The notes under the pieces are model-generated. The model saw nothing but the letters and a program-made list of their open reading frames with translations. It was not told the DNA's origin and searched no databases. From IMG/VR virus record IMGVR_UViG_3300021962_000299, positions 1-36,395 of that record: DNA of 36,395 nucleotides. One strand, written 5' to 3'. Made by a program: the position numbers and the translations under genes. Source of the DNA: a virus. How positions within the stretch are numbered: position 1 is the first letter of the stretch; every line of letters begins with the position of its first letter. Below are positions 4,095 to 32,326 of this stretch, one piece after another.

Positions 4095-4142
4095 TGTTTG
4101 ATTGTTCGTGCGTTTCGATGGATGCCCTCGGCGGTTCGCTGC

Positions 4143-4316: not shown

Positions 4317-4459
4317 TGTTCGTCTTGTATATTGAGTTCGATTAGTCCTGTTCCGTTGCAGTCCGCGCAGCGATAACGCAGCGTGCTGTTCGTCTCGACC
4401 GTGAACCATCCGCGTCCGCAGCACCAGCGGCATAAGATCGATACCTCTTCGTCAGTCAT
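4313..4459 (-). CDS. 48-aa DnaJ-type zinc-ribbon protein
   Basis: This short frame starts at ATG 4459-4457 behind a strong AAAGGAG ribosome site, overlaps the end of the RecE-like gene by 8 nt and ends in ATGA with the next gene. It contains CRWCCGRGW (about 10-18) and CADCNGTG (about 31-38), two CxxC knuckles each followed by a GxG, as in the zinc-binding repeats of DnaJ and many small phage zinc proteins. Between them lies a short Thr/Asn/Arg hairpin. It probably binds one zinc ion. Its cellular role is unknown. Confidence 0.75.
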   Translation of the reverse strand: MTDEEVSILCRWCCGRGWFTVETNSTLRYRCADCNGTGLIELNIQDEQ

Positions 4460-5294: not shown

Positions 5295-5482
5295 GACTCA
5301 CCTCCTTTCAATATATCAAGACGATGCAACTCCGACGCCACGCGGTGCAGGATTTGCGTCGCGGAATGCACGACGCAGTAGGCGCGATAGTATTCTTCGT
5401 GATGCTTCAGCGTCCACGCGCGCTCGATGCAGTCTATCGCCTCGATGAACTTCGCGTTCAAGTCTACTTGTGAAATGATCAT
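5291..5482 (-). CDS. Small hypothetical protein, 63 aa
   Basis: A 63-residue, mostly helical protein lying between the RecT-like and RecE-like genes. It overlaps its upstream neighbour by ATGA and its downstream neighbour by GTGA. GGAGGGC lies a few nucleotides before the ATG. Composition is rich in Ile, His, Tyr and Glu, with a central HHEEYYRAYCVVHS segment at about 27-40 and no recognised domain. Its position inside the recombination operon suggests an accessory role, which is inference only. Confidence 0.6.
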   Translation of the reverse strand: MIISQVDLNAKFIEAIDCIERAWTLKHHEEYYRAYCVVHSATQILHRVASELHRLDILKGGES

Positions 5483-5772
5483 TGCTTGCCCTCCTCGATG
5501 CCGAGCTTCGACTGGAGCGGATCGACTTCCTGTTCGCTCTCGTCTTTATAGCGAGCGGACCAGCCGAGCTTGACGATCACGGTCGGTGCCTGCGCGAGCG
5601 CATCCCACTCGATTGCGACGGAGACTTTCGCGACCGGCTCGGTCTTCGTGTCATCATCGACGAACGAGTCAGATGCGGCCTTTCTAATCGCCTCGTAGTT
5701 TGTCTCAAGCAGACCGCGCAGTTGCTCGGTCGCGGAATTGATGACTGCGGTTCGGATTTCGTTTGTGCTCAT
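5479..5772 (-). CDS. Hypothetical protein, 97 aa
   Basis: ATG at 5772 is chosen because it lies 8 nt after the RecT-like stop. An upstream in-frame extension would overlap that gene and is Ser/Arg-rich. The N-terminal half is helical (NEIRTAVINSATEQLRGLL). The C-terminal half looks like two beta strands (VAKVSVAIEWDAL, TVIVKLGWSARYKD), a pattern seen in small phage proteins accompanying RecT. No catalytic motif is evident. There is no Shine-Dalgarno at the start, only an A/C-rich leader. Confidence 0.6.
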   Translation of the reverse strand: MSTNEIRTAVINSATEQLRGLLETNYEAIRKAASDSFVDDDTKTEPVAKVSVAIEWDALAQAPTVIVKLGWSARYKDESEQEVDPLQSKLGIEEGKQ

Positions 5773-5779
5773 GGTACGT

Positions 5780-6409
5780 TTAGAGGTTAGCGGTGAGTCC
5801 GGCGGCGACCTTCTCAGCGAGCGGCGTGACATTGACTGGTTCGTCGCGCACTTCTTCGGCGGTCTTCAGACCTTTCAGAACATCGCCGAACATATCGCGA
5901 AGGAGAAATCCGCGTGCGCGAAACTTGAGCATCCGGCGCGGATAATCAGTCCACGGCCCGCTCTTATTCCAGAGCTTCGCGGTCTTCGCGTCGGCGACCG
6001 TGAATGTCTCCGACTGCGGCTCGAAGCCGCGTCGCTTCGCGGTGACTTTATAGCCGTGCGAGTCCTTGCCCTGTTCTCCGATCTCCTCCTCGGAATAGCT
6101 TTCGAGCTGGCCGCTGGAGCGGATCAGCGCGAGCGCGGCGTCGCCGAATAGTGACGGCCGGCCGTTGACCACGGCGATGTTGGAGAGAGCAGCCATCGGA
6201 GTCAGGCCGAGTTCCGCGCCCCATTGGAGCGCGACGAGCACGCTTTCTGGTTTCTCCATTCCGCGCGGCGCGAAGCCAGAGCCGACGATTGCCTTCGCAA
6301 ATCGGAAGGCATCTTCAAGCGACGTGAGTTGCACGCCAGTCGAGCCGAATGAGATCGGCGATGATACAGCCGCTTTCGCGGCGACGATGATTTCGTTTTC
6401 GTTGTTCAT
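5780..6409 (-). CDS. recT: RecT-family single-strand annealing protein
   Basis: A 209-residue annealase that would coat single-stranded DNA and pair complementary strands. The segment from about residue 28 onward (LEDAFRFAKAIVGSGFAP), then SVLVALQWGAELGLTPMAAL and NIAVVNGRPSLFGDAALALI, is the signature of the RecT-type phage family. Further matching segments are SHGYKVTAKRRG, FTVADAKTAKLWNKSGPW and YPRRMLKFRARGFLLRDMF. Length is near the lower end for the family (about 200-300). ATG 6409 is preferred. In-frame ATG codons at 6427 and 6448 are alternatives, all lacking a Shine-Dalgarno. It pairs functionally with the RecE-like nuclease. Confidence 0.88.
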   Translation of the reverse strand: MNNENEIIVAAKAAVSSPISFGSTGVQLTSLEDAFRFAKAIVGSGFAPRGMEKPESVLVALQWGAELGLTPMAALSNIAVVNGRPSLFGDAALALIRSSGQLESYSEEEIGEQGKDSHGYKVTAKRRGFEPQSETFTVADAKTAKLWNKSGPWTDYPRRMLKFRARGFLLRDMFGDVLKGLKTAEEVRDEPVNVTPLAEKVAAGLTANL

Positions 6410-6457
6410 AAAAAATTTGTGCAGCATACAAAGCCCGCTGCGTAGCATTTTTTTTAT

Positions 6458-6463
6458 ATTATA
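6458..6463 (-). promoter_or_regulatory. Candidate -10 box before the recombination operon
   Basis: A perfect TATAAT sits in an AT-rich stretch (6451-6470) between the Gly-rich micro-gene and the RecT-like gene, about 50 nt before the RecT start. The expected -35 position falls in the GGC-repeat and is poor, so an activated promoter or chance is possible. The following leader contains a small GCAGC/GCTGC stem. Confidence 0.35.
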
Positions 6464-6468
6464 AATTA

Positions 6469-6606
6469 TTAGCCGTCGCCATAGCCGTAGCCTGAGCCGG
6501 AGCCGTCGCCGGAGCCGTAGCCGTAGCCGTAGCCGTAGCCATAGCCGTAGCCGTCGCCGTAGCCGTCGCCTGAGCCGGAGCCGTCGCCGTAGCCGTAGCC
6601 TTTCAC
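6469..6606 (-). CDS. 45-aa Gly-X dipeptide-repeat micro-protein
   Basis: A GTG at 6606-6604 overlaps the TGA of the upstream gene (GTGA), the same junction used elsewhere in this genome. The frame reads Met-Lys, then 21 Gly-X pairs where X is Tyr (12), Asp (5) or Ser (4), a final Gly, and TAA at 6471-6469. Every second residue is Gly, encoded always as GGC, and X codons are nearly all TAC, GAC or TCC/TCA. No Shine-Dalgarno is seen, so translation would depend on coupling. Such a chain would be disordered or self-associating. Its function is unknown. I have seen similar Gly-Tyr/Asp/Ser small proteins in phage and bacterial sequence, but have not verified a family. Confidence 0.55.
   Translation of the reverse strand: MKGYGYGDGSGSGDGYGDGYGYGYGYGYGYGSGDGSGSGYGYGDG
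6472..6600. repeat. Hexamer-like GGCTAC/GGCGAC/GGCTCC tandem array
   Basis: About 129 nt made almost entirely of 6-nt GGC-NNN units, with 12- and 18-nt higher-order copies such as GGCGACGGCTCCGGCTCA occurring twice (around 6570-6590 and 6500-6520). It coincides with the micro-protein above. Such an array is prone to slippage, so copy number may vary between isolates or be misassembled. Confidence 0.95.
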
Positions 6607-6890
6607 GCCGACCACACTTTCACGCTGCCGATCGACTCGCGCGCTTTTGCGGTCGTTGGAATGACTTCAATGACTTCCGGCAAGAGAATCTCCTCAACGA
6701 TGACCGGAAACTTGCATTCATTTGGTTTTGACGTGCCATCGACCGCGAGTTGGCTCAACGACGCTGCGCCCGACCAATACCAAATGCGCCGAGCGTTCTT
6801 AAGAATGGCCTCGCCAGCCTTATAGCTTTTCAAAACGCCAGCGAAAACTCCCGCTGAACGTGTTCTGATAATGACATATTTGTTTTTCAT
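6603..6890 (-). CDS. Conserved small phage protein (KYVIIRTRSAGVFAG type)
   Basis: A 95-residue protein with an N-terminal strand KYVIIRTRSAGVFAGVL, then ARRIWYWSGAASLSQLA (about 33-49) and a C-terminal strand region rich in Val/Ile/Glu. This order matches a family of small phage proteins of unknown function (DUF6948-like, from memory), often near replication or recombination genes. ATG 6890 follows an AT-rich leader without a Shine-Dalgarno. An extension upstream would overlap the preceding gene. Its stop overlaps the GTG of the Gly-X micro-gene. Confidence 0.75.
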   Translation of the reverse strand: MKNKYVIIRTRSAGVFAGVLKSYKAGEAILKNARRIWYWSGAASLSQLAVDGTSKPNECKFPVIVEEILLPEVIEVIPTTAKARESIGSVKVWSA

Positions 6891-6901
6891 GGGTGAAAAA
6901 T

Positions 6902-7306
6902 TTAGAACGGAACTTGGTCTTCGTTGACCGGCGCATTTCGCAGCACCGGCTCGTTCGCAGGAGCGGCCAGCTTGCCAGAGCGGCGGTGGACAATCGTCCG
7001 CGCAGCGTTGCGCAGTCGCACGTCCTCCGCTCGCGGCGGGAATGGCGTGCCGTCGTTGCGCAGGCGCGGCTCCGGTTCTTGCGCGTACCACTCGACCGAC
7101 TTCGGCGCGAGATCGCCCAGTCGCGTGCCTTTATTTTTTCCGAAATGCACGAGCACGTCGACTGCACCCTCGATGATCTCGGTCGGCATCGGCACCTCGC
7201 CGCGCGGTTGCGGCTTGGCCTGCGGAGCGTCGCTGGCCTTAGCCATCAGCGCGATTCGGATCGCTTTAATCTCAGCGAGAAGCTCGCTATATTGTTCATT
7301 TGTCAT
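6902..7306 (-). CDS. Protein with an exonuclease-X-C-terminal-like HFGKNKG motif
   Basis: A 134-residue protein with a helical N-terminus (about 1-25) and a Pro/Ala linker. The motif VLVHFGKNKGTRLGDLAPKS at about 51-70 is followed by VEWYAQEP. This motif resembles the short domain found at the C-terminus of exonuclease X and in small DUF3820-like proteins, which may bind nucleic acid. The extreme C-terminus EDQVPF looks like the acidic tail of single-stranded DNA-binding proteins that recruits partners, though no OB fold is evident. It overlaps the previous gene by 11 nt. Confidence 0.6.
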   Translation of the reverse strand: MTNEQYSELLAEIKAIRIALMAKASDAPQAKPQPRGEVPMPTEIIEGAVDVLVHFGKNKGTRLGDLAPKSVEWYAQEPEPRLRNDGTPFPPRAEDVRLRNAARTIVHRRSGKLAAPANEPVLRNAPVNEDQVPF

Positions 7307-7487
7307 TTTTTGTGGGTTCGAATTGTTCTTCGATTCGCCGCAGCTCGGCGCGTTCTGCTTCCGCCACGTCGCGCATTTCGCGGAGGCGGTGCTTGCTAGT
7401 AGTCATCGTCGCGTGCCAGTCGTCGTCGTGTCCGTCTGCGGCTCCGCAGCGCGCCATGCGCAGGAGTTCTGAGCGCGAGAGGTTCAT
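7296..7487 (-). CDS. Small charged hypothetical protein, 63 aa
   Basis: ATG at 7487 overlaps the stop of the previous HTH-like gene (ATGA), with GGAGG just upstream. The N-terminal segment contains LSRSELLRMARCG, then a His/Asp cluster (DGHDDDWH) and a charged helix (HRLREMRDVAEAERAELRRIEEQ). No family is recognised. A longer in-frame version up to 7772 would overlap the upstream gene entirely and is not preferred. Confidence 0.5.
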   Translation of the reverse strand: MNLSRSELLRMARCGAADGHDDDWHATMTTSKHRLREMRDVAEAERAELRRIEEQFEPTKNDK

Positions 7488-7678
7488 GTCGTCGCCTCCT
7501 TGCGCAGTTGCCTGATGAGTTGCCGCTCGTGCTCCGAGAGGTGCATCGCGCGCCAGCCAAGTTCCCACGAGAGCCGGTAGGTCCACGAGACGGAGATGCC
7601 AGCCTCGTGCGCAAATTCCTTCGGGCTTTTGCCTTGGCTGAGCGCGATATTGAGTGCGGTGCGAAGATCGGTTGTCAT
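7484..7678 (-). CDS. Small helix-turn-helix protein, 64 aa
   Basis: A 64-residue protein whose central part (about 17-40, SPKEFAHEAGISVSWTYRLSWELG) fits a helix-turn-helix, with the turn at AGIS. A second helix follows (SEHERQLIRQLRKEA). It could regulate the early operon or act with the adjacent methyltransferase. No operator is identified. It overlaps both neighbours by ATGA, so it is translated as part of a polycistron. Confidence 0.6.
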   Translation of the reverse strand: MTTDLRTALNIALSQGKSPKEFAHEAGISVSWTYRLSWELGWRAMHLSEHERQLIRQLRKEATT

Positions 7679-8664
7679 TCGAAGGAAAGCTCCTGCGTTT
7701 TCTGATCCCGCCCAATCGCTGATAGATTGCGAACCGCTTGCCGATAATAGCTCGACTTAAGTTCGACGCCAATGCCTTTGCGCCCGTTCAATACTGCGCC
7801 GTAAACTTCTGAGCCAACGCCCATGAAAGGAGTAAAGACTACCTCACCGGGATTCGACCATAGCACTACTGCGCGTTCGATCACGTCGAGTTGCAAAGGA
7901 TGCACATGGCGCTCATCGTCCTTATCGCGGCTTTCCTCGTAGGCGAGCACGTTGTCGATTCGTATATCATCCCAGACACACGATGCATATTGCCGCCAGA
8001 TCCAATGTGAGAAACGATTCTCGGTCTGCTTGCCTTCGTGTCCCTTCCATTCAAGCAACTCGCGCGGCATCTGACGCTCTCCGGCGTAAGAGTGGAGCCC
8101 AGTCGGGTGCGCGACTGGCACCGGATTCTCGCCCTTCTTTCTAAAGCAAAGCAGGTAGTCGCCTCCAGCAACGTCGCACAAAGTCGAGTCCTCGACGATC
8201 TGTGCGTGGGCAAGTCCTTTTGCCATCGTCCGCAATCGAACGCCGAGCGGCTCCTTCCAGATCACGCGGCGCATACAGAACTGGAATCCGTGCTTTTCGT
8301 GCGCGCGGATGATGTCACCGGGAAAGTCGATCAGCCCAGATCCTACGTTTGCGGCAATGCCCATCTTGGCGGTCGGCCCATTGCCGGTGCCAGCAACGTC
8401 CATACAATGCACCGCCGTGATCCGGCCAGATTTAGTAAGCCGCGCGATCTCCGAGATCACAAAGTCATAGTGCTCGAAGAACTCCGAGTAGGAGCGGCAG
8501 TTCGAAAGATCGCGTTCGCTGCTGCTGTAGTTGTACAGCCCGCAGAACGGAGGCGAGTAAACAGAGAGGTCAATCGATCCATCTGGCATCGCGCGCATTA
8601 CGTCGATGCAATCGGAGTTGTATAGTGCGAAGCGGTCTGTGATGTGTTGATTATCGTTGTTCAT
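7675..8664 (-). CDS. DNA methyltransferase (N6-adenine/N4-cytosine type)
   Basis: A roughly 329-residue SAM-dependent enzyme that would methylate an exocyclic amino group in DNA. From the ATG at 8664, the substrate motif SPPF lies at about 37-40, following NSDCIDVMRAMPDGSIDL. The SAM-binding FTPFMGVGSEVYGAVLNGRKGIGVEL segment lies near 291-316. Catalytic motif first and SAM motif last is the beta-class order. A second ATG 6 nt upstream (8670) is possible. The 8664 start gives the usual ATGA overlap with the helicase stop. No restriction endonuclease is adjacent, so it is probably an orphan methyltransferase protecting phage DNA or marking it for regulation. Confidence 0.85.
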   Translation of the reverse strand: MNNDNQHITDRFALYNSDCIDVMRAMPDGSIDLSVYSPPFCGLYNYSSSERDLSNCRSYSEFFEHYDFVISEIARLTKSGRITAVHCMDVAGTGNGPTAKMGIAANVGSGLIDFPGDIIRAHEKHGFQFCMRRVIWKEPLGVRLRTMAKGLAHAQIVEDSTLCDVAGGDYLLCFRKKGENPVPVAHPTGLHSYAGERQMPRELLEWKGHEGKQTENRFSHWIWRQYASCVWDDIRIDNVLAYEESRDKDDERHVHPLQLDVIERAVVLWSNPGEVVFTPFMGVGSEVYGAVLNGRKGIGVELKSSYYRQAVRNLSAIGRDQKTQELSFE

Positions 8665-16084: not shown

Positions 16085-16849
16085 TTAGTCTGCGGGTTGA
16101 CCGTGAATAGTTGCTGCAAGCGATCCGCGTCTGCTTTTTCCACCAGCAACAATCCTCTGCAATTCTTTTTGCATTGATACTGCGCGCATTTTTGTTGCGG
16201 CACTAACTACATTAAATTCGTAATTCGGAATTTTAGACGATCTGTTGATCGCTTCAATTTCGAGCCTATCTGGTCTAGGTGGCCTATAGCCACTGCCGGC
16301 CTTACCGGAATGACGACTAACCCATTTAGGAAGTTTTAATCCTACTGCATTTGCAGCGGCTGACCATCCAGCTCTAGCAAAGCCAACAAATGACTGCACG
16401 GTTTTAGTATAAGTGTCCCAATGGTCAGCAAATGCCATTCTGTTTTTATCGCTCCTGACTCTCCCATATCGCGTTCTATGTCTCTTATGGTTTTCCTTTA
16501 TTTCCGCAACTGATAGCAAAAGTCGGCGATATGCAAAGAATCCCTTTCTTTGCTTCATCCACAATTCGCGAATTGCGTTTATATCTCTACTCAAAACCAA
16601 TTCTTTCATCCTTTTCCATTTGATTTTCTCTGGCCGCAATGGAAAGGCAGCTCGATATAAATCGCCAGAAATTGCATCTTCACCCTGTTTGCGTGTCTTT
16701 GGTGGAGTGAATCGCATGATGTCACGTAAGAGCAGCCGCATTTCTTCCTTCAACAGCTTTGTGCCATCTGCACCGAGCTGATACACAAAAGAGTTTATCG
16801 CGGCTCGGTATTGCACTTTCGCAATCTCAAATGAGATGCTTATTTTCAT
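16085..16849 (-). CDS. Putative neck or minor tail protein, 254 aa
   Basis: A basic 254-residue protein. The N-terminal region contains LLLRDIMRFTPPKTRKQGEDAI (about 42-63), a motif seen in minor tail/neck proteins of the gpZ or HK97 gp10 type that organise the head-tail joint. The central part is Lys/Arg/His-rich (KENHKRHRTRYGRVRSDKNRM) and could contact DNA. The ATG overlaps the upstream stop. The gene is distinctly AT-rich (one 60-nt stretch at 16441 is about 40% GC). Confidence 0.6.
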   Translation of the reverse strand: MKISISFEIAKVQYRAAINSFVYQLGADGTKLLKEEMRLLLRDIMRFTPPKTRKQGEDAISGDLYRAAFPLRPEKIKWKRMKELVLSRDINAIRELWMKQRKGFFAYRRLLLSVAEIKENHKRHRTRYGRVRSDKNRMAFADHWDTYTKTVQSFVGFARAGWSAAANAVGLKLPKWVSRHSGKAGSGYRPPRPDRLEIEAINRSSKIPNYEFNVVSAATKMRAVSMQKELQRIVAGGKSRRGSLAATIHGQPAD

Positions 16850-17175
16850 GCTAGTGGCCTACGCAAAGCGTAGTCATGCCATTGTTCATCTGCGTTCATA
16901 GTTATGATCTGATATGTCGTCGAATCGAAAACGCGATAGATGAATGTATTCGGTTCAAAGCCAACCGTCATAGATGCTCTAGGAATACAAAGAGAAATGC
17001 TGCGATCATCCACGAAGCCGGATGCTTCCATAATGATTCCGCGACTAAGTTGGTTGAAAACTCCGTAATAAGTAACACTAGAAGAAAGGAAGGGTTCGCT
17101 CGCCTGCCCATCTGGGCCACCAATCGCGAGGGCATCTATTGCCAATCTTTCAATGTTGAAATCTTTTACAGCCAT
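16846..17175 (-). CDS. Putative head-tail connector protein, 109 aa
   Basis: A 109-residue protein with strand-rich segments (SVTYYGVFNQLSRGIIMEASGFVDDRSISLCIPR, TTYQIITMNADEQWHDYALRR). It lies directly before the neck-like gene in the order connector, neck, terminator, tube. A stopper or head-closure role is inferred from position only. It starts 2 nt after the carbohydrate cassette, which therefore separates it from the capsid gene. Confidence 0.5.
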   Translation of the reverse strand: MAVKDFNIERLAIDALAIGGPDGQASEPFLSSSVTYYGVFNQLSRGIIMEASGFVDDRSISLCIPRASMTVGFEPNTFIYRVFDSTTYQIITMNADEQWHDYALRRPLA

Positions 17176-17177
17176 AC

Positions 17178-17891
17178 CTAAGTGCCGAGTGTCACAACGC
17201 GCGACGCTGCGCTGTAGTGGTCATCCTGCGCACAACCGGACAAGACGTGCCAGAACCAAGGCCGGACGGCACCAGCGATGATGCATGGCGCGGAATTTAT
17301 CGTGAAGACCTCCGCAGCGTCACGCAGCAGGCGCGGCAAGTCTGCCTGAGATCGAGCGCGCAGGATTTCGTTTTTCGGAAAACCAATTTCGATGAGATGC
17401 TTTGCCTGCGCCGGATCGGCAAGCGTCACGATTGGCTTGGAAGCGAGCCTGCGGCATTCGGCGAGCAGATCGGAGAACCTATAGTGCCTCGCCTGAGAGT
17501 AGCCGAATGGAGAAAAAATGCACACCTCGCGGGAAACTCCGTAGCTTTCGAGGCCGTCGTTTTCGTCGATCAAATCGAAGTGCGGTTTGCGATGGATGTT
17601 CGAGAACTCAGAATGAATTCCGAACACGAAATCCTCCCACGATTTTCCGCTGCGTCTGAACTCGTCATAGCGATGCGGCCAGATTTCGAGGTCGATGACT
17701 CTGCCGAAGCCTTCCGATTCGCGCAATTCCCTAAGCGACGGTCGCACGTAGGAAACGGCACCGAAAACTCCGACGTATTGCGGCAAGCACTCGACGTAAA
17801 CCTCGTGACCTTGAGCCGCGAGATGACGCGCAATCGGCAGGATGCGGATGATGTCTCCGAGTCGCTGACTGTATACGAGGCAGATTTTCAT
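17178..17891 (-). CDS. GT9-like glycosyltransferase (heptosyltransferase-type fold)
   Basis: A 237-residue protein beginning KICLVYSQRLGDIIRILPIARHLAAQGHEVYVE, the characteristic GT9 start (GD-x-I/V...LP..L) of ADP-heptose:LPS heptosyltransferases. The C-terminal half contains PIVTLADPAQAKHLIEIGFP and RLLRDAAEVFTINSAPCIIAGAV, matching the donor-binding half of that fold. It is shorter than typical GT9 enzymes (about 320-350). It could transfer a sugar to the virion surface, to DNA or to a cell-surface glycan. It overlaps the methyltransferase by ATGA and is the last gene of the cassette. Confidence 0.72.
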   Translation of the reverse strand: MKICLVYSQRLGDIIRILPIARHLAAQGHEVYVECLPQYVGVFGAVSYVRPSLRELRESEGFGRVIDLEIWPHRYDEFRRSGKSWEDFVFGIHSEFSNIHRKPHFDLIDENDGLESYGVSREVCIFSPFGYSQARHYRFSDLLAECRRLASKPIVTLADPAQAKHLIEIGFPKNEILRARSQADLPRLLRDAAEVFTINSAPCIIAGAVRPWFWHVLSGCAQDDHYSAASRVVTLGT

Positions 17892-18526
17892 CGGCGAAAT
17901 GCCATTGTCAGAATGTTTGGAGCGCAGGAATCTGCATCCGGCTTGCGCACTTCATCTTCGGGATTGCCGACATAGACCGGACGGAATCCAGCCTGCGCGA
18001 ATAGTCTCGTCAGGCTTCCCGGCGTGAAGTGCCAGAGATGTTCTCCCGGCCTGCGATGTTTCCATCGAGCGAACCATTTCGCTCCCATGTAAGGATGATA
18101 CCACGGCAGCGATACGATCACCGCACGAGCGCGCAGATGCTCAACGAAGTCGAGCGAATCGAAGTGCTCAAGACTGTCGAAGAACGTTACCGTGTCCCAT
18201 TGCAACTCGTGCCAGTCTGCGCCGACTCGATTGATGAAAGACGGAAGCGGATAAGGAGAAACGTCGTGACCGCAGCAAACGATTCCCGGCTGCGTGCGTT
18301 TCATCTCTTCGAGGAAAGCACCTGTGCCGCAGCCTACGTCGCAAACATTGATCGCAAATTCGGAAAAGCGATGCACTAGCTTCGCTCTGATCGCCGACAA
18401 TTCACGCTGTGGATAGTTTTCATATCGTGCTACGTAGGCGTGATCGTAAACCGCAGTCACGCGACGATCCCTCGACCGGAGCGCGCCTGTCTTCGCGTCG
18501 ATTTGATAATGCTCGGGAACGTTCAT
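17888..18526 (-). CDS. Class I SAM-dependent methyltransferase
   Basis: A 212-residue protein with the SAM-binding motif VCDVGCGTGAFLEEM (about 61-75) and a FFDSLEHFDSLDF segment that corresponds to motif IV. SLPWYHPYMGAKW and a C-terminal strand region follow. It resembles small-molecule or sugar O-methyltransferases (methyltransf_23 type) rather than DNA methylases. The start at 18526 (ATGA overlap with the glycosyltransferase) is chosen over a longer Arg-rich extension that overlaps that gene. Likely substrate: a sugar placed or built by the neighbouring transferases. This is inference. Confidence 0.8.
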   Translation of the reverse strand: MNVPEHYQIDAKTGALRSRDRRVTAVYDHAYVARYENYPQRELSAIRAKLVHRFSEFAINVCDVGCGTGAFLEEMKRTQPGIVCCGHDVSPYPLPSFINRVGADWHELQWDTVTFFDSLEHFDSLDFVEHLRARAVIVSLPWYHPYMGAKWFARWKHRRPGEHLWHFTPGSLTRLFAQAGFRPVYVGNPEDEVRKPDADSCAPNILTMAFRR

Positions 18527-20223
18527 TTCGCGTCTGGGTTGCGTGACTTGAAGAGCGCCTCGCCGCGCACGTATCGCTCGCGGGAATTCGTGTGCGAATA
18601 TGTCTTGTCCATGTTCGCCTTGCCGAAAGCCGGATGCCGGTGATCGAAGCGCAGGCGATCTCTCGCGTCGATCACGATGCCGTCGCGCCATGCTCGGTGA
18701 GAGAATTCGTTGTCGCTGAATACAGACTCATACTCAGGAAAGAACAAGTGTCCTTGCTGCTCGTAGCGAGCACGCGACAAGATCGCCATGCAGAGCAAGT
18801 CGTCCTTCCGGCTTCCATCGCTCGGCGCGATCACGAATGGCTCGGAATGAGCGTCGCGATCCCTCACGAGATCGAGCAGCTTCTCATCCCATCCGGCGCA
18901 TGGCACCCAATCGTCCGAGAGTTGTACGAGGATTTCTCCGCGCGCAGATGCCGCAGCAAGATTCCACGCTGCGACGCACGACTTGTCCGACGAAGTGACG
19001 GAGATGAACTGCTTCGCCATCTCAACGCTGACGGCATCGTCCTCATCGACCGCGAAGATATGCTCAACGCGCGTCGGATCGCTGGCCGCATTCAGCCACA
19101 TATCCCGCGTTGAAACCGCCATTGAGGAGCGACCTCGCGTTGCGTGCAGGAGCGAAATCTTCGGAGTCTTGCCGAGATAGTATTGAGCCTGAAGAACCGC
19201 CGCCATCGCCTTGTTGCCTTCGGCTCGGAATGCGCGAGCGGCAAGATCGTATCCGGCCCAGCCGTACCACTTCGCCTCGTGCGTCCACGGTCGCTTGTCG
19301 CTCAATGGCTCGCGCAATTCCGTCATGCGATGCGCCCAGTATACAGCCATCGAATAGTCTTTCTGTTCGAAGGCGTGCAGCACAAGACCGGCGAATGCCT
19401 CTCGGCACCACGGGAAAACGCCGTGCGCTTCGAGCAAAAGAGACTTCGCTTCGCGGCTGGAATTAGTCAGACGAGCGCAATTCAGCAACGCCTCGTATCG
19501 GAACGCCGGTTGAAGATTCGGGAACTGCAACGCGAGGCGACCAAACTCCAGCGCGGCTTCGCGGTTCTGATTACAGTAATGCTCCTGATGAATATAGAAA
19601 TACTGCGTCGCGCATTCGCGAACCGAGTTTGCGAGGATGCGGAGATTGCGCCTCCGGTTCTCCTGCTTGATTTCTTTTGGTGCGTGAACCCAGACAACGT
19701 CGCCGAGATCGAGATGCTTGTCGCCAGCGAGAATCAGCAGGTTCTCGTGTACGTCGTGATGCCAGACTCGACCGGAGTGGAAAGCGTCTCGGCGAATCGC
19801 TCGCTCGCGGAACAAGCACTTGTTCGATCCTTTGACGTCATACGAGAAGCGCACCATTTGCACATCTGCCGGGACTTGCTCCAGCGTGCGACGTAGATTC
19901 TCGGCACCGCGCACCACGTCGTCGCAGTCGGCCCAGAAAAGCCATTCGCTTTTGGCCTGCTTGAATGCGGCATTGCGAGCACGAGCGAATGAATCAACGT
20001 GATCCCAATCGCGTGCGGTCGGCTCGTTAATATACTCGGAGAAAACAAACGCCTTGCCGTTCGACCGGCACCACTCCTCGGCGATCTCCTTTGTCGCGTC
20101 AGGCACACGCTTGCCGATTGCGCGCACGAGCGAAAGCTCGTCGAACGCAGGAGCAAATGCTGCGAGCATCTGGCCTATGTGGTGCGACTCGTTGCCGCAT
20201 ATCACGCAAAGCGAAAAGCGCAT
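18523..20223 (-). CDS. Two-domain glycosyltransferase with TPR-like middle
   Basis: A 566-residue protein with two GT-A domains. The N-terminal GT2 half (about 1-200) begins SLCVICGNESHHI and carries the DxD site WADCDDVV near 96-103. Helical repeats follow at about 215-345 (AALEFGRLALQFPNLQPAF, CREAFAGLVLHAFEQKDYSMAVYWA), as in TPR-linked glycosyltransferases. The second GT2-like half (about 360-545) starts ISLLHATRGR and contains VQLSDDWVPC and EYESVFSDNEFSHRAWRDG. It would add two sugars or chain units, or target structural proteins. It starts 19 nt after the capsid terminator and heads the three-gene cassette. Confidence 0.82.
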   Translation of the reverse strand: MRFSLCVICGNESHHIGQMLAAFAPAFDELSLVRAIGKRVPDATKEIAEEWCRSNGKAFVFSEYINEPTARDWDHVDSFARARNAAFKQAKSEWLFWADCDDVVRGAENLRRTLEQVPADVQMVRFSYDVKGSNKCLFRERAIRRDAFHSGRVWHHDVHENLLILAGDKHLDLGDVVWVHAPKEIKQENRRRNLRILANSVRECATQYFYIHQEHYCNQNREAALEFGRLALQFPNLQPAFRYEALLNCARLTNSSREAKSLLLEAHGVFPWCREAFAGLVLHAFEQKDYSMAVYWAHRMTELREPLSDKRPWTHEAKWYGWAGYDLAARAFRAEGNKAMAAVLQAQYYLGKTPKISLLHATRGRSSMAVSTRDMWLNAASDPTRVEHIFAVDEDDAVSVEMAKQFISVTSSDKSCVAAWNLAAASARGEILVQLSDDWVPCAGWDEKLLDLVRDRDAHSEPFVIAPSDGSRKDDLLCMAILSRARYEQQGHLFFPEYESVFSDNEFSHRAWRDGIVIDARDRLRFDHRHPAFGKANMDKTYSHTNSRERYVRGEALFKSRNPDAK

Positions 20224-20241
20224 GGCTCTGCACTAGGCGTC

Positions 20242-20273
20242 AAAAAAGCCGCTCCCAGTTACGAGAGCGGCTT
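20242..20273 (-). terminator. Intrinsic terminator after the major capsid gene
   Basis: On the minus strand a perfect 9-bp stem (AAGCCGCTC at 20273-20265 pairing with GAGCGGCTT at 20254-20246) with a 10-nt loop is followed by a T6 run (20247-20242). It lies between the capsid stop (20296) and the glycosyltransferase start (20223). It should give high-level monocistronic end formation for the capsid, with partial read-through or a separate promoter for the carbohydrate cassette. Confidence 0.92.
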
Positions 20274-20295: not shown

Positions 20296-21261
20296 TTACG
20301 AGTATTGCGTCGCGATAAGCTGGCCCGCGTTGCTGTTCACAACCTTCTCGGCGACGAACTGCGAAGCGCGAACGATGTTCGACTTCACACTCTCGTCGCG
20401 ATAGGTGAACACGCCGACCGCAGGACCGTACTCGCTCCAGTTGAGCGTGAAGCCCGCGCCGCCACCGAAGAAGCCGGAAGAAGCCTCGGTGACATTGCCG
20501 ACCCAGATGTACGTGTTGGACCAGACCTGCGAGCTAGAGAACGCCACGCCTTCCGGCGCGGTATCGTAGCTGGCGCGACCGATGAGCACCTCGGCGACGC
20601 CGAAGACTTCGGCAGCGGCCTGCGTGCTCGCGTTGAGGATCGTGTCGCTCGAAAGACCGGCACCGCGAAGGCGGTTCTGGAATTTCGTGCTGGCGCGGAT
20701 ACGAGTCCAGACCGGCGCGCTCATGACAACGCGCAGATTGCTGACGCTCTCACCCTTCGCGAGCAGGCGATCAATCGCCTCCTGCACGTCGGCACCAACG
20801 TCGAACGAGGCTAGATTGCCCGTCGTGTAGGCCGTGCCGGAATTCGTGCTCGTGAACGTACCAGCGTCGAAGATTTTGCCAGCGACGCGGATTTCGTGAC
20901 CGAGCAGGAGCTTCCGCTGCGCGAGCTTGGCGGCAACGACTTCGGCATCGAAGAAGCGCGAAACATCGAGCGCGACGGTATCGTCAACGCCCATTTCAAC
21001 GCCGTATTCTTGCGCGATGTACGTCTCCTGATTGTAAGCCTGCGTCGCGCGCGGATACGCGGAGTTCGGCGCACGCTGCTTGATCTCGTTCTTCAGGAGC
21101 TGACCTTCCTTCAGGAGGAACGAGGGATACTGGCCGGCGCGAACCGGCACCGGGAGAACCGGCATCACGCGAGTGGCAACCAGACCGGATTCCCAGTCCT
21201 TAGCCTGCTCAAGCACACCAGCGATATCGCCGCGAAAGACTGCGGCTGCATTCGTATACAT
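20296..21261 (-). CDS. Major capsid protein
   Basis: A 321-residue protein with Thr/Ser/Gly- and Ala-rich capsid composition. It contains YNQETYIAQEYGVEMGVDDTVALDVSRF, ADVQEAIDRLLAKGESVSNLRVVMSAPVWTRI and TLNWSEYGPAVGVFTYRDESVKSNIVRASQFVAEKV near the end, in line with HK97-fold or gpE-like capsid subunits. A good AAAGGAC ribosome site precedes the ATG. It directly follows the protease and decoration genes and is closed by a strong terminator, as expected for the most abundant virion protein. Confidence 0.82.
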   Translation of the reverse strand: MYTNAAAVFRGDIAGVLEQAKDWESGLVATRVMPVLPVPVRAGQYPSFLLKEGQLLKNEIKQRAPNSAYPRATQAYNQETYIAQEYGVEMGVDDTVALDVSRFFDAEVVAAKLAQRKLLLGHEIRVAGKIFDAGTFTSTNSGTAYTTGNLASFDVGADVQEAIDRLLAKGESVSNLRVVMSAPVWTRIRASTKFQNRLRGAGLSSDTILNASTQAAAEVFGVAEVLIGRASYDTAPEGVAFSSSQVWSNTYIWVGNVTEASSGFFGGGAGFTLNWSEYGPAVGVFTYRDESVKSNIVRASQFVAEKVVNSNAGQLIATQYS

Positions 21262-21284: not shown

Positions 21285-21635
21285 TTAGAGATTCTTCGGA
21301 ATGAACTCGATGACGGCACCGTTGCTGGAAGTCGTCGTGAGCGACTTGCCGATGGTGATCGTCCCGGTCGTGGAGACGAGGCCGGACGCGCCGAGATACA
21401 GCGTGTCACCGACCGTCACCGGAGCAGCGGTGACAACGCCCTTCTGGGTGCCGAAGTTGGTCAAGAACGCGACCGTGACGTAGTCGCCGGAAGCCGCGTC
21501 GATCTGCGCGAAGCCGTCGCAGTCGGTCGCGCTCGAAAGCCCGACGCCGCGATTGCTGGAAAGCACAACGCCGTAAAAGGCGGTGACGGTGGTGTTGGCA
21601 AGGAGGGTTCCCGTGCCGATATAGTTGGTAGCCAT
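21285..21635 (-). CDS. Capsid decoration protein
   Basis: A 116-residue Thr/Gly/Val-rich beta protein (GTGTLLANTTVTAFYGVVLSS, GDTLYLGASGLVSTTGTITIGKSLTTTSSNGAVIEF). The composition and the C-terminal barrel-like pattern are those of DUF2190-type decoration proteins, which bind the mature capsid surface. It sits between protease and capsid genes, the usual place. No Shine-Dalgarno is present, and the leader is A/C-rich. Confidence 0.75.
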   Translation of the reverse strand: MATNYIGTGTLLANTTVTAFYGVVLSSNRGVGLSSATDCDGFAQIDAASGDYVTVAFLTNFGTQKGVVTAAPVTVGDTLYLGASGLVSTTGTITIGKSLTTTSSNGAVIEFIPKNL

Positions 21636-21647
21636 GTTTAGTTGGTT

Positions 21648-22586
21648 TTAGAGTTTGATCTTCTCGCCAGCCTGCACGCGCGAGCGGTAGGCTACGTAAA
21701 GGTCGGAATTGTTCTTGATGCAGAACGTGATCGCCGCCGCCTTGTCGCCTTTCAGCTCGGCAGTCTTCTCGGCAACGACGGCCTCGAAGGTCTTCGTCTC
21801 AGTCTTCGGCGCAGCGGCCTCGGACGAAACAACCGGAGCGGCAGGCGCACCGATAGTCTTCGAGAACTCCTTCACCGCAGCGATTGCGGCTTCGTTGGCG
21901 GCGAGCTTGACGGCATCGGTCTGCGCGCTCATCGCGACTTCCTTTTCCTCTTCCTTTGGCAGCATCGCTTCGAGCTTCGAGAGACGCTCGCCATAAGCCA
22001 TCATCGCAGACTGGATCATCTGCTCGACGGCTTGTTTCATGTCATCGTTCATTTCGGGATTGGGTTCGATTTCGATTGAGACGCCATTGGCGTCGTTAAA
22101 CTTGGAGAGTATACGCGAGAACAATCCGTCACGATTCGCCGCAGGCTCGGAAACCAGATCGACGGAATAAATCTCAGAGCAGCGTTGAAGAACCGTGCGC
22201 TTGTCGCTCGCTAGTTCTGTCGGACCAGAGAACGCAATAGAGAGTCCGAACGTGTCGGGAATCTTCTCTGCGATCTCCAATACGTAATCGCGATGCGGCG
22301 ACTTCTCCAACAGGTTGAGGTCGCCGAGTAACTTGCTGCCCTCAATACGCAGATTCTCGACGAAGCCGATGATATCACCGGCACCACCAGAATGATCGAG
22401 CTTCACCTTGAGTCCGCCTTCATATTGCGACGCGGCTTCCTTCACCTGTTCAAGCGTTCTGGAATCAATCTGCACGCCATGACCGAGTGCCGGTCCCTCG
22501 GAGATGAGAGAGACGCCACGAATGATGCCAGCCTCGCGATCAACGCGACCGGACGAGACGGCAAAAGTGATAGTCGGAGCAGCCAT
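21648..22586 (-). CDS. Prohead protease with scaffold-like tail
   Basis: A roughly 312-residue protein. The N-terminal half (about 1-165) contains GVSLISEGPALGHGVQID, EGGLKVKLDHSGG (His-Ser pair likely part of the catalytic site) and LLEKSPHRDYVLEIAEKIPDTFGLSIAF. Mu I/Z and S49/S78-like head proteases share this pattern. The C-terminal half is a charged, Ala/Glu/Lys-rich helical region like an internal scaffold. Start choice: ATG 22586 has no ribosome site. TTG 22607 has GGGAAAGG upstream and would add seven residues. It lies directly before decoration and capsid genes. Confidence 0.78.
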   Translation of the reverse strand: MAAPTITFAVSSGRVDREAGIIRGVSLISEGPALGHGVQIDSRTLEQVKEAASQYEGGLKVKLDHSGGAGDIIGFVENLRIEGSKLLGDLNLLEKSPHRDYVLEIAEKIPDTFGLSIAFSGPTELASDKRTVLQRCSEIYSVDLVSEPAANRDGLFSRILSKFNDANGVSIEIEPNPEMNDDMKQAVEQMIQSAMMAYGERLSKLEAMLPKEEEKEVAMSAQTDAVKLAANEAAIAAVKEFSKTIGAPAAPVVSSEAAAPKTETKTFEAVVAEKTAELKGDKAAAITFCIKNNSDLYVAYRSRVQAGEKIKL

Positions 22587-22608
22587 TGTAAAATGCGGAT
22601 TCGTCAAA

Positions 22609-27909: not shown

Positions 27910-30270
27910 TCAGTTCTTATTCTGAAGTTTTCCTTCGTGCTGTTTCATACAGACCGCGCTCCGTTGCGCGGCATCTGGAAACTCTGCGGTTGCTACAGGA
28001 TCGGCCATGCAGCGAGCCATGAAGTCGTCGTGCGTCTCGCCTGCGGATGGCGTCGGCAGATCAAACTTCTTCGGCTCGGCGAATTGCACGAGCGGCTTGT
28101 CGAGAATCGGATTGGTCGCGGTCGCTGCTTTGATCGAAAGCTCCTTGCGATATTGCTCGACAGCATTGAGCCATGCGTGCGGATCGGCTGGCCGCTGTTC
28201 GAGCGTGATCGCAACGACGTCTGCGGATTCGAGTCTGCGCTGCTGCTCGGTTGACGCGGCTTCCTTGCGCTCGGCTTTATTGAGCCGCTCGACGATTGCG
28301 TTCGCCCAAGTGCGGCCAGCGTCGCCGCCCCAGCCCTGCCACGCCTGCCAGCCCTTGCCCTGCTCGTTCCATGTCGAACCCTGCTTGTCGATCTCGTGCC
28401 GGTCGAAGTATGCCTTCATCCGGCGCACCGTATCGGCTGAAAGCGGCTTCTTGTTTTGTATATCACGAGCGCGAGCGAGGCCGACCGAAGTCATGCCGCG
28501 CTGAGACGGTGGCTTGCTGGCGCGAACCTCAAGCGCGCGGCGAGCGTTCGCGGCCATGCGATCATTCGGCACGTATGAATCCTCCGCGAAGTTAATCGTG
28601 ATCAGATCGGCCGAGGCGTTGACCTGCTCGACCGGAGCGTCGGGCGTTGCACCTTCGGCGACGTTCTCGGTGGAGGCAGACTGACCGGGAGATGCGGCTT
28701 GCTGCGCTTGCGCGGCAGACGTTGCGACCTGATCGCCAGCAGCAGCGGCAGCGGCTGGAGTGCTCGGAAGCGAATTAGTCACAAGTCGGATTGCCGTCTC
28801 AGGGATCTCATACTTCTGCGCCAGCTCCTTAACGTATGCCGCCTCCATCGCGATTTGTTCAAGACGACCGAAAGCGTCGGTGCCTTGCTCGGCTGCGATC
28901 TCCTGCAATGACTTCGCGCCTTGCCTGTTCTCGTTCATGTTCGCCGCGCTCTCGCGGCCAACATCAATGGTGATCTTCGGCGGGAATCTCCATTCGCCGC
29001 GCGTCGCACGACGGAGAGCTTGCACCATAGTCTCGCCAGTCTGTAGCGGCGGCGGCGGAATTTCCTCGCGCGCGATGGCGTCGAGGATGACCGCGTTCTT
29101 GATCGGATCGAGCACCTTGTCCACGAGCACGCCTTGGTGCCGCACGAACACGCGATCCGCCGCAGCGAACTCGGCGCGGACGCTCGGACCTTTGAAGTCC
29201 TGCGTGCCGAACAGAACGCCTTGCGGGATGCCGATGCCGATTGCGATCTCGTGCATCAAGTGTTGCACAAATCCGGCGAACGCCTGCGACGGACGCGAGG
29301 GCATGACCTCGATGCGATCAGCGGTGCCGAAATACCGAATCATGCCGATCTCGGACAATTCATTTTTCTGCGCCTGTCCGCTCGGCAACTGGATCGACGG
29401 ATTTGGTGTGAACAGATTGCGCGGATTCGCCGCCGCCTTGTCCGAGAATACAAGTGCCGCCTGCTGCGCAGCGAAGCGCACGCCGGTCTTCTCGGCCTCA
29501 AGAATGCCATACAGCATCCGAGCCGATCGCGCGCAGGCGTGGAAGTCGGACACGCCTCGGAATTGATCGCTGCGGAATGGATCGAAGAAGTGACAGAAAT
29601 TCGCTGCCGGGATTTCCTCGGGATCGAAATATACACCGTCCCGCGTCACGCGATATATTTGATACGCAATCGGACGACCGAACTCATCGACGATCACGCC
29701 TTGATAATAATTCGCAGGCTGCGCCGTGAGCGCATTCGGATTGCCGATGCGAGTCGCCGGAACGATCTGGATCTTCAGCTCCTTGTCGAGACGACGAAGA
29801 ACAAATCCGAAGTCGCCGTCAACCGGACGCTCCTCGCACCCAATCTGCACGAGCTTGCGGAACGAGTGCCGCCCAGTCACGTCGGCGCGCTTGCACCAGT
29901 CGTGAAAGTATTCGTTGACGATGTTATTGTACGCGCGGTCACCAGTCATCGCCGAGAACTCCTGCGGCGTGCAATAGAGCGAAAACTTGCGCGTGATCTC
30001 GCGCGCTTGCGGGAAATTCTCAACGAGGTCGCGCGCCTCCCACATCATCACGATCCGGTCGCGCACCGTCTGCGTTGATTCGCTCGGCTGTCCGTATTGG
30101 CGCGGAGCGTATAGACGATCCGTCATCGCCGCGTTATACGAAAACATCTCGCGCTGGATGCGCGCTTCCAGACGCTTCAGCGCATAGGCAGGCGCAACGG
30201 TCTCGATTGCACGCTCGAACCAAGGACGATTCTGGATGACCTTTTGAAAGTCGAAAGACGTAGCGTCCAT
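27910..30270 (-). CDS. Portal protein with two extra C-terminal modules
   Basis: A 786-residue portal. About 1-520 is portal-like (lambda type): ARIQREMFSYNAAMTDRLYAPRQYG, then RFAAQQAALVFSDKAAANPRNL and PGVLFGTQDFKGPSVRAEFAAADRVF-type segments. It should form the dodecameric DNA channel. A later module (about 580-690) contains MAANARRALEVRASKPPSQRGMTSVGLARARDIQNKKPLSADTVRRMKAYFDRHE and WGGDAGRTWA, a pattern often fused to phage head proteins. The final part has DDFMARCMADP and DAAQRSAVCMKQHEGK, another small motif of head proteins. ATG 30270 is preferred over a TTG at 30300. Confidence 0.85.
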   Translation of the reverse strand: MDATSFDFQKVIQNRPWFERAIETVAPAYALKRLEARIQREMFSYNAAMTDRLYAPRQYGQPSESTQTVRDRIVMMWEARDLVENFPQAREITRKFSLYCTPQEFSAMTGDRAYNNIVNEYFHDWCKRADVTGRHSFRKLVQIGCEERPVDGDFGFVLRRLDKELKIQIVPATRIGNPNALTAQPANYYQGVIVDEFGRPIAYQIYRVTRDGVYFDPEEIPAANFCHFFDPFRSDQFRGVSDFHACARSARMLYGILEAEKTGVRFAAQQAALVFSDKAAANPRNLFTPNPSIQLPSGQAQKNELSEIGMIRYFGTADRIEVMPSRPSQAFAGFVQHLMHEIAIGIGIPQGVLFGTQDFKGPSVRAEFAAADRVFVRHQGVLVDKVLDPIKNAVILDAIAREEIPPPPLQTGETMVQALRRATRGEWRFPPKITIDVGRESAANMNENRQGAKSLQEIAAEQGTDAFGRLEQIAMEAAYVKELAQKYEIPETAIRLVTNSLPSTPAAAAAAGDQVATSAAQAQQAASPGQSASTENVAEGATPDAPVEQVNASADLITINFAEDSYVPNDRMAANARRALEVRASKPPSQRGMTSVGLARARDIQNKKPLSADTVRRMKAYFDRHEIDKQGSTWNEQGKGWQAWQGWGGDAGRTWANAIVERLNKAERKEAASTEQQRRLESADVVAITLEQRPADPHAWLNAVEQYRKELSIKAATATNPILDKPLVQFAEPKKFDLPTPSAGETHDDFMARCMADPVATAEFPDAAQRSAVCMKQHEGKLQNKN

Positions 30271-30277
30271 GATGGTA

Positions 30278-30511
30278 TCAATTCCCGTTGAAACTGACAA
30301 AAGTCACCGTGTCGGTGACTCCATTGGCATCGTCAATCGCGGCCTGAATCTGGCCGAGCATTGTATTGAGCCTTCCCAGATCGGCGCGCGTGACCGATTT
30401 GCCGTTTAGGCTATAGCTCGTGTTGAGCAAGCAGGCGCGAATTGCCGCCAGCGTCTCGGTCTTGAGCGTCGATAGCGTAGCCGCGTCGATGCCCAAAAAT
30501 GGATTGTCCAT
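30278..30511 (-). CDS. gpW-like small head-tail joining protein
   Basis: A 77-residue protein lying between large terminase and portal, where gpW-like proteins usually sit. It contains helices (TLKTETLAAIRACLLNTSYSLNG, RADLGRLNTMLGQIQAAIDDANG) with SLNGKSVTR between them, close to the gpW pattern of a basic turn followed by a helix. ATG 30511 is preferred because TAGGG lies 7 nt upstream. Another ATG at 30517 lies in a hairpin. Confidence 0.65.
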   Translation of the reverse strand: MDNPFLGIDAATLSTLKTETLAAIRACLLNTSYSLNGKSVTRADLGRLNTMLGQIQAAIDDANGVTDTVTFVSFNGN

Positions 30512-30541: not shown

Positions 30542-32326
30542 TTACATCGCGTCCGTTTTGGGCACGTACCGCAGCACGCCAGCGATGGTCGCGACGCAAA
30601 GCATCATGGCCGAAGTGTCGAGGCCGTGATTCGGCGCATTGCTGCGAACCTCGCGCCACTCCCAGACGCCGGAACGGATCTCGGTTTTCACCTCGCCTTT
30701 GAGATGCTCAATATACAACGGATTCACGTCGTCTGGCATTTCCCACTTCAACTCGCCTTTTCCCTCTAGTGCGAGCGCGAGCAGGTCTTTGAAATAGTCA
30801 CCGGACCAGTTGTAGAAATTTGCGTCGCCGCCAGCGTAATCGCTGATTTGCGGCTCGGAGAACGGATAATTGAGCAGCGTGCCGCTGGCCTCGTCGCGCA
30901 TCGTCCACGACTTTCGCGCATAGCCGCGCATTCCGCGCCAGCCAAACTCGACGCAGTCGCGGTCAACTTCCGCAGGCTTATATCCGCGATCCTGCACGAC
31001 GGTGAATGACGGCACGCGATAGCGGCTCTGAATCTCGCGCAGCATGGTGCGAGTCTCAACGCGACCGAACCAGAGTTGCCGATATATTGGACCATCGAGA
31101 AACGCGCCGACCTCGACCCAAAAGTGATCGAGCTGCCGGTCTATTGTCATCACGCGCAGGCGTTCGTTTTCTATGGGCGATCCGTCTGCATAGGTTGCGA
31201 CGGTATATCCGCTCTTTGCCGCGAACAGATTGACGACCTTTTTCTCGACGACCCACGGTCGCGCCTCGCGCTTCGTTCTAAACTCGATCTTCGCTGACTC
31301 GTCGCCGGTTCGCACGAGTGTATTCTCGGCGTGCGCCCACTCCTCCGCGAGCAAGCGCATCGGACGGCTGACAATCGCCTCGATGCGGAACGAGCGGACC
31401 TCGCGTGACGCCTTCGGGTTCTGCGGCACGAAGCGGCCAGTCTTCGCCCAGCCGGCGCGGGTCGCATCGTTGTCCGGCGACTCATGCCCGCAATGCACGC
31501 AGCGGAAACGCACGGTCTCGACGACGCGCGCAACGTCCCAAGTATCGTCATCACGCTTCGCGGAGCGGTCCCAAACGAGGCCTGCCCGCTGATTTCCCTC
31601 GGTGATCTGCTCGAAGGCAACTGGGTGCAACTTCCGGCAGGCCGGACACTCCGCGTGCCACTCGCCTTGGTCGCCGCTGCGAAAGCTCGTGTCCTCGACG
31701 TTGCCGGTCTCGGCGTCCATGACCGGAGCTTGCGACGCATTGTATATCTTCGACCTGCCGACCTCCTCGAACTTGGACACGCGCGCGACGGCGTGACCGT
31801 ATATTTCCTGCCAGCGCGGAAGCCACAATTCGTCGTTGATTTTGTACCGGATCGACTGGCTCTGCTGGGTCGAAAGGTTCGCCGCGTTCAACGTCAGGAA
31901 GAACCCGCCGAAGAAAATCTCCGTCGTGGTCCGGTGCGGTCCCGGCTTAGGCAGCATCGCGGCTACCGGACGGCATCGCTCCAGCAGCGGCCACAAGCGG
32001 GTCTTCGCGTGCCGCTCGACCATATCGTCCGTCTGCATCGTCCAGCTAATCGGACCGGGATCGTTCGCGATGATCCACGGGAGCCAGACGTCGGCGACAA
32101 GTGTGCCGCCGATCTGGACTGATTTTCGGAAGTGAACCCGTCGTACAAGCGGGTCTTGCAGCGCATCGAAGATCGGCACGAGCCACGGACTCAACCGCAC
32201 GTTGAATGGTCCCGGCGTCGCGTAGCTCTCCGGCAACTGGACGTGCCGTCGCGCCCAGTCGTAGATCGGCGCGCGGTCCGGCCGAGGCAGACGCAAGTCC
32301 GCAAGGATGTCGGGCGCGTCAGGCAT
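30542..32326 (-). CDS. terL: Large terminase subunit, GpA family
   Basis: A 594-residue ATPase/nuclease that cuts and packages DNA into proheads. The modified Walker A HFRKSVQIGGT ends near residue 75 and the Walker B-like KINDELW is at 163-169. A zinc-binding module is formed by CPACRK (227-230) and CVHCGH (276-279). Nuclease-region segments follow: MTIDRQLDHFWVEVGAF, TVVQDRGYKPAEVDRDCVEFGWRGMRGYARKSWTM and a C-terminal HGLDTSAMMLCVATIAGVLRY. Length suits GpA (about 600). ATG overlaps the upstream 47-residue gene by 8 nt. Confidence 0.92.
   Translation of the reverse strand: MPDAPDILADLRLPRPDRAPIYDWARRHVQLPESYATPGPFNVRLSPWLVPIFDALQDPLVRRVHFRKSVQIGGTLVADVWLPWIIANDPGPISWTMQTDDMVERHAKTRLWPLLERCRPVAAMLPKPGPHRTTTEIFFGGFFLTLNAANLSTQQSQSIRYKINDELWLPRWQEIYGHAVARVSKFEEVGRSKIYNASQAPVMDAETGNVEDTSFRSGDQGEWHAECPACRKLHPVAFEQITEGNQRAGLVWDRSAKRDDDTWDVARVVETVRFRCVHCGHESPDNDATRAGWAKTGRFVPQNPKASREVRSFRIEAIVSRPMRLLAEEWAHAENTLVRTGDESAKIEFRTKREARPWVVEKKVVNLFAAKSGYTVATYADGSPIENERLRVMTIDRQLDHFWVEVGAFLDGPIYRQLWFGRVETRTMLREIQSRYRVPSFTVVQDRGYKPAEVDRDCVEFGWRGMRGYARKSWTMRDEASGTLLNYPFSEPQISDYAGGDANFYNWSGDYFKDLLALALEGKGELKWEMPDDVNPLYIEHLKGEVKTEIRSGVWEWREVRSNAPNHGLDTSAMMLCVATIAGVLRYVPKTDAM

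Follow-up and report, generated by a model that had tools for sequence, protein, structure and literature searches.

A constant glycosyltransferase and an exchangeable cassette slot behind the capsid gene of an uncultured phage lineage, a probable head-glycosylation locus

Organization of the capsid-cassette region

The window analysed here, 36,395 bases long, corresponds to an entire IMG/VR virus record (IMGVR_UViG_3300021962_000299). Its late genes are encoded on the minus strand in the order TerS-like, TerL, portal, tail/fibre-like (1113 aa, upstream of the protease), metallophosphoesterase, protease, cement protein, and major capsid protein (MCP), and a three-gene cassette (17178-20223, minus strand) follows behind the capsid gene and a terminator.

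34952-35734, minus strand: Mom-type DNA modification protein (PF25680, 8.6e-50), adjoining a ParB-like gene
34320-34955, minus strand: TerS-like gene
30542-32326, minus strand: TerL
27910-30300, minus strand: portal
21648..22607, minus strand: putative head maturation protease (phrog_976, 6.4e-4; syntenic in relatives)
21285..21635, minus strand: capsid cement/decoration protein, Ser/Thr-rich, candidate acceptor (Phage_cement_2, 7.1e-7)
20296..21261, minus strand: MCP, 321 aa, candidate acceptor (phrog_1005 major head protein, 1.7e-32)
20242..20273, minus strand: Rho-independent terminator-like hairpin with T-run (72-nt MCP-GT gap, fold -31.9 kcal/mol, z -3.57)
18523..20223, minus strand: core glycosyltransferase (GT), 566 aa (Pfam GT2, and PHROG at both ends)
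17888..18526, minus strand: class-I SAM-dependent methyltransferase (MT), 212 aa (Methyltransf_23, 2.4e-16); its ORF is listed to 18691, a longer in-frame reading
17178..17891, minus strand: short GT-B/GT9-fold glycosyltransferase, 237 aa (AF2 and Foldseek)
17171..17178, minus strand: recombination joint
16846-17175 and 16085-16849: genes downstream of the cassette, no family match

The gene set anticipated in the original prediction was recovered with its reading frames, overlaps, and domains as described, ATGA overlaps joining (i) the GT stop to the MT start and (ii) the MT stop to the GT9-like start; the gene after the cassette begins 2 nt past the GT9-like stop. Placement between capsid and neck genes was borne out on the capsid side by the PHROG major head protein match, while on the other side the two genes are putative neck genes by their order. 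The predicted capsid terminator is likewise present, as a hairpin in the 72-nt MCP-GT gap that was found by folding and was absent from the list of an automated terminator scan; those relatives whose MCP-GT gap was inspected likewise have a hairpin with a T-run there. Further, a Shine-Dalgarno-like AAAGGAC precedes the capsid gene, whereas no such site occurs in the 25 nt upstream of the GT ATG. From the hairpin and this contrast, we infer low expression of the enzymes and high expression of the capsid protein. A separate promoter for the cassette was rejected, since promoter-like sites were no more numerous than in shuffled sequences. Most relatives have a TTGAC/TTTAC stretch after the T-run of the terminator (20224-20260, minus strand); it lies too near the GT start for an obvious promoter.

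Among the neighboring structural proteins, the MCP contains no Cys, and the cement protein has Ser/Thr columns that are conserved in relatives. The window also encodes an N6/N4 DNA methylase, and a PAPS-reductase-like protein (32467-33324, minus strand; phrog_424, 1.6e-45) adjoins TerL.

The core enzyme resembles protein and peptide glycosyltransferases

The core GT comprises (i) an N-terminal GT2 (GT-A) domain with an ADCDD motif (residues 98-102), (ii) a helical, TPR-like middle (about residues 187-348), and (iii) a second GT-A domain (about residues 355-550) with an SDDW motif. Its Pfam Glycos_transf_2 match (2e-10) covers two stretches, and PHROG glycosyltransferase matches were obtained for both the N-terminal part (1.2e-18) and the C-terminal part (2e-14). 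The N-terminal domain scored 41.3 bits against PF00535, above the curated cut-off of 23.3, and Asp99, Asp101, and Asp102 of its DxD-type motif (D99-C-D101-D102) are invariant in 23 representatives, so that both the profile and the conserved acidic metal-binding motif assign it to the GT2/GT-A enzymes. In the AF2 model (pLDDT 88.7), two GT-A domains flank the helical middle.

A profile of the 23 GT relatives, searched against the PDB, matched Listeria GmaR (3.7e-11) and, weakly, ThuS (7msk) and TarS. The best Foldseek matches of the GT model were SunS/ThuS (1e-13; 7msp, rmsd 3.5 over 298 columns), and the wall teichoic acid enzymes TarS, TarP, and RmlT were also among its fold neighbors. GmaR, which combines GT and TPR domains, is a flagellin GlcNAc transferase in which the TPR domain has been proposed to recognize the substrate (PMC9638930). 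With a GT2 domain followed by a TPR-like domain, and with a matching fold, the phage enzyme has the SunS/GmaR-type arrangement; by sequence and modeled fold, it appears to group with the protein/peptide glycosyltransferases, its protein acceptor being a prediction. Residues 33-45 read VRAIG..PD where many GT2 enzymes read DTGS (the usual stretch being DTGSxD), and Val33, Arg34, Ala35, Gly37, and Asp42 are invariant across the GT family; this replacement makes the donor uncertain and hints that it may be an unusual one. No strongly hydrophobic or membrane segment was found in the GT. Its dN/dS values of 0.03-0.15 place it under strong purifying selection. A shorter form of 461 aa also occurs, with a truncated second GT domain and, next to it, a separate gene of 213 aa.

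The methyltransferase and the GT9-like transferase

The MT passed the Methyltransf_23 cut-off (60.4 bits versus 27), and its profile had a sole PDB match, the N,N-dimethyltransferase 3bxo (1.6e-5), an enzyme that acts on a nucleotide sugar. Its homologs include SSM2_196 (36% identity) and PAJU2 gp12 (27.6%), and its dN/dS values were 0.07-0.41.

The third cassette protein had no Pfam (including GT9), PHROG, or PDB sequence match, and the searches run gave no sequence match to it beyond the lineage. The original guess of a GT9-like transferase was nevertheless correct as to fold: the AF2 model (pLDDT 94) has the two Rossmann-like domains of a GT-B enzyme such as GT9, and Foldseek matched it to 3tov (GT9, 2e-7), WaaC (1.2e-6), and TibC (2.3e-5), with heptosyltransferase II also among the neighbors. 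We thus term it GT9-like by its modeled fold, the protein being ~100 aa shorter than GT9. RLGD and NSxP motifs are invariant in the family, and dN/dS was 0.06-0.13.

The glycosyltransferase is constant behind the capsid gene

Searches with the GT and the MCP identified 265 and 226 viral contigs, respectively, from which we fetched three overlapping sets, namely the best 80 of the 265, the best 80 of the 226, and a further 80 from a diverged MCP. This sample held 110 distinct MCP genes, 100 of them with at least 1.2 kb of downstream sequence. Among these best matches, a GT homolog lay behind the MCP gene in 100 of the 100 distinct loci (77 clusters at 95% nucleotide identity), at a distance of 200 nt or less in 90 and greater in 10; two of the distant ones inspected (L017 and L032) carry an HNH endonuclease-like ORF (227 aa) in the gap. 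The GT was also present in 64/64 of the loci kept under locus ids from capsid-based searches. Given this record, the adjacency of MCP and GT genes is not due to chance. The MCP set is about 65-100% identical to one another's queries, with more distant capsid relatives falling outside it, so that the universality of the GT holds for this lineage. A search of 50,697 deposited phage records yielded no relative of the MCP.

The GT does not track the Mom, thymidylate synthase, or integrase genes, homologs of which were found in 4, 0, and 0, respectively, of 21 GT-bearing records (which may be fragments). The sole genome match, L156, derives from a Betaproteobacteria MAG, where it belongs to a 28-kb contig; we rejected a host assignment on this basis, as phage genes occupy much of the 17.5 kb read and it may be a binned phage contig. 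Between its fibre-like and protease genes, L156 also carries a sulfotransferase (4717-6522; PF13469, 6e-14), which might sulfate a glycan.

The slot after the glycosyltransferase holds alternative cassettes

We defined the slot as the stretch from the GT to the next conserved gene and typed 121 distinct slots by tblastn, the wrong-frame ORFs F5, F10, and F11 being artefacts. About nine alternative cassettes occupy it, and none of the 121 slots is empty.

MT23-GT9: 46/121
F1 (213 aa, with the short GT; no Pfam hit): 44/121
DUF5672-GT9: 9/121
small GT2: 8/121
MT24-GT2-GT9: 5/121
MT23-GT2-GT9: 5/121
GT-B-like, TPP enzyme, and alcohol dehydrogenase (ADH): 2/121
another MT, GT2, and GT9: 1/121
GT9 alone: 1/121

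All 121 slots contain GT, sugar-enzyme, SAM-MT, or (F1) GT-A-looking genes; F1 is putatively carbohydrate-related, given its resemblance to GT-A enzymes and its position in the slot. The original prediction saw a possible new version in the set with its linking methyltransferase; the methyltransferase is not the defining novelty, as MT plus GT9 is only the commonest of these cassettes. On the capsid tree, the cassette types require 10 changes (minimum 7), which indicates that a cassette usually descends together with the head and is occasionally swapped. In two relatives, L087 and L009, a TPP/ADH cassette replaces MT-GT9; their MCPs are 93% and 89% identical to that of the window, and their GTs 63% and 75%, respectively. 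These phages have exchanged GT and cassette apart from the MCP, so that head and GT are separable.

The cassette stays with the head genes when tail genes are exchanged

Three close relatives (L003, L008, and L020) are about 96% identical to the window in blastn comparisons over a stretch that begins at the end of the fibre gene and spans the protease, cement protein, MCP, GT, MT, and GT9 genes. Homology stops at the joint at position 17171, 7 nt past the GT9 stop, and their neck/tail genes had no DNA match to the window by blastn, which indicates that the cassette stayed with the head during a tail exchange. Moreover, two neck types, n106 and n109, were both found behind one cassette type. 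Of all the evidence, this linkage to the head argues most strongly that the acceptor belongs to the head and not to the tail, the host surface, or DNA.

Proposed function and alternatives

We consider it probable that the cassette enzymes add sugars to one of the structural proteins of the head, with swappable, clade-specific glycans that include methylation. This reading draws on the gene content, motifs, predicted folds, synteny, selection, and cassette exchange described above; we infer from these the acceptor, sugar, linkage, chemistry, step order, expression level, and benefit set out below. The acceptor would most likely be the MCP or the Ser/Thr-rich cement protein, modified in the cytoplasm late in infection. 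The TPR-like scaffold may grip the protein while the N-terminal GT-A domain adds a first sugar, probably on Ser/Thr, as the MCP has no Cys; S-glycosylation of the capsid protein is ruled out for the same reason. The second GT-A domain would add another sugar, a step that a separate gene perhaps performs in the short-GT subclade, and the MT and GT9-fold transferase would extend and methylate the glycan. Enzyme levels would be held low relative to capsid by the terminator that follows the MCP gene. The GT would thus be the fixed priming part, and cassettes swapped among phages would give capsid glycans that differ between clades, with a probable benefit against capsid- or glycan-binding factors or in adherence to surfaces. 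Support for the late expression and virion target of the original prediction is indirect, coming from the constant core GT, its kinship to protein/peptide glycosyltransferases, and its travel with the head genes. As for "capsid or tail", the link is to the head, since tail genes are replaced in close relatives that keep the cassette.

Two points weigh against this reading: neighboring genes do not always have products that act on one another, and the kinship of the GT to TarS, TarP, and RmlT in fold, with a weak sequence match to TarS, allows for a nonprotein acceptor. The enzymes could modify the host surface (LPS, capsule, or a teichoic-type glycan) against superinfection or re-adsorption to debris, which we regard as unlikely. 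These teichoic acid enzymes are fold neighbors of the GT, the LPS heptosyltransferases WaaC and heptosyltransferase II are among the GT9-fold neighbors, and the variation of cassettes between phages resembles that of receptor-related genes. However, the closest relative by sequence glycosylates flagellin, and the fixed place behind the capsid gene (100/100) and the retention of the cassette with the head through tail-gene change count against this explanation. The lack of membrane segments also speaks against it, although soluble surface-glycan GTs exist, as does the absence of integrase from all 21 records, though these are fragmentary. With no integrase in these records and no hydrophobic segment, the locus does not qualify as an O-antigen-modifying cassette of lysogenic conversion.

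A nonhead virion protein (tail tube or fibre) as the target, with gene place reflecting late expression only, is improbable in our estimation: mycobacteriophage enzymes act on capsid and tail tube alike (PMC11600133) and the late block includes the tail genes too, but unrelated tail genes stand beside nearly identical GT-MT-GT9 cassettes in close relatives, and neck types n106 and n109 share a cassette type. Transfer of sugar to modified DNA bases would accord with the Mom-type protein and N6/N4 DNA methylase of the window, yet we give it very little credence, as Mom occurs in 4/21 and thymidylate synthase in 0/21 GT-bearing records (possibly fragments), and the closest GT relatives work on proteins or polymers. 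Both host-surface and DNA targets had been offered as alternatives in the original prediction, and these gene counts, with that for integrase, disfavor them.

Beyond probable head glycosylation, we tentatively suggest that the locus does for the virion what an O-antigen locus does for a cell: a universal protein-priming GT, fixed behind the capsid gene, is combined with an allelic slot whose content (methylation, GT2, GT9-fold, DUF5672, or TPP/ADH-made sugar) might set a "capsid serotype" throughout an uncultured phage lineage. If head glycosylation is correct, the heads of this lineage would bear sugar coats as a constant, diversifying trait, rather than a sporadic extra; the purpose of virion glycosylation would become testable, the fixed priming enzyme and natural swaps coming close to an allelic series; and likely protein glycosyltransferases with TPR scaffolds could be drawn from the cassettes.

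Relation to known systems

In cluster O mycobacteriophages, GT-MT sets modify the capsid and tail tube (PMC11600133). Mycobacteriophage virion glycosylation (Freeman et al. 2023, as cited in PMC11600133 and PMC12619734) likewise involves tandem phage glycosyltransferases and an O-methyltransferase gene, whereas the locus described here differs in its GT core of the GmaR/SunS GT-TPR kind, in the constant position of that GT after the MCP gene, and in its exchangeable cassettes. The proposed likeness to some actinobacteriophages holds for the kind of system, while no mycobacteriophage record appeared among the tblastn matches. The gene context by which virion glycosylation is recognized, a GT with structural or late genes, is present in 100/100 loci, sugar on the virion being a prediction.

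Listeria GmaR and Bacillus SunS/ThuS share the N-terminal GT2 and TPR-like domains with the phage GT, and act on cytoplasmic protein or peptide acceptors, as is predicted for the phage enzyme; unlike them, it has a second GT-A domain, lacks an antirepressor domain, and carries VRAIG..PD for DTGS. In chlorovirus PBCV-1, the GT-GT-methyltransferase protein A064R builds methylated capsid glycans (PMC7826918, PMC9614988). While the virus-encoded pair of GT activities with a methyltransferase is alike, PBCV-1 is a eukaryotic virus and A064R a single fused protein acting on an N-glycan, and we claim no homology. Pseudomonas phage PAJU2 has a homologous MT and two further genes (gp10-gp12) between its head-closure and tail-terminator genes, gp10 being annotated as a sialyltransferase and gp11 appearing GT9-like by eye; it differs in being temperate and in having no large GT-TPR enzyme within the stretch read, and no report of the function of gp10-gp12 was found in the literature searched. 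Synechococcus phage S-SM2 encodes homologs of the window's MT (36%) and of the ADH (48%) and TPP enzyme (51%) from the alternative cassette in one cluster, which makes the alternative slot cassettes look like pieces of one sugar pathway; S-SM2 is, however, a large T4-like cyanophage whose cluster lies beside nucleotide-sugar epimerases and a GT10, not capsid genes.

Our literature search, with most subscription papers outside its coverage, found no report of a GT with an allelic slot behind a capsid gene. Virion glycosylation by phage GTs and MTs is already known; what is new is a constant core enzyme of the GmaR/SunS type with an allelic cassette slot. Besides PAJU2, a similar placement occurs in ctf1B273, where a gene for a 567-aa GT2-TPR protein separates TerL from the portal. 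In L232 (MW202497), a siphovirus-like genome from Manatee Spring, a GroEL-annotated gene near the portal is flanked by two glycosyltransferase genes (3472-7791).
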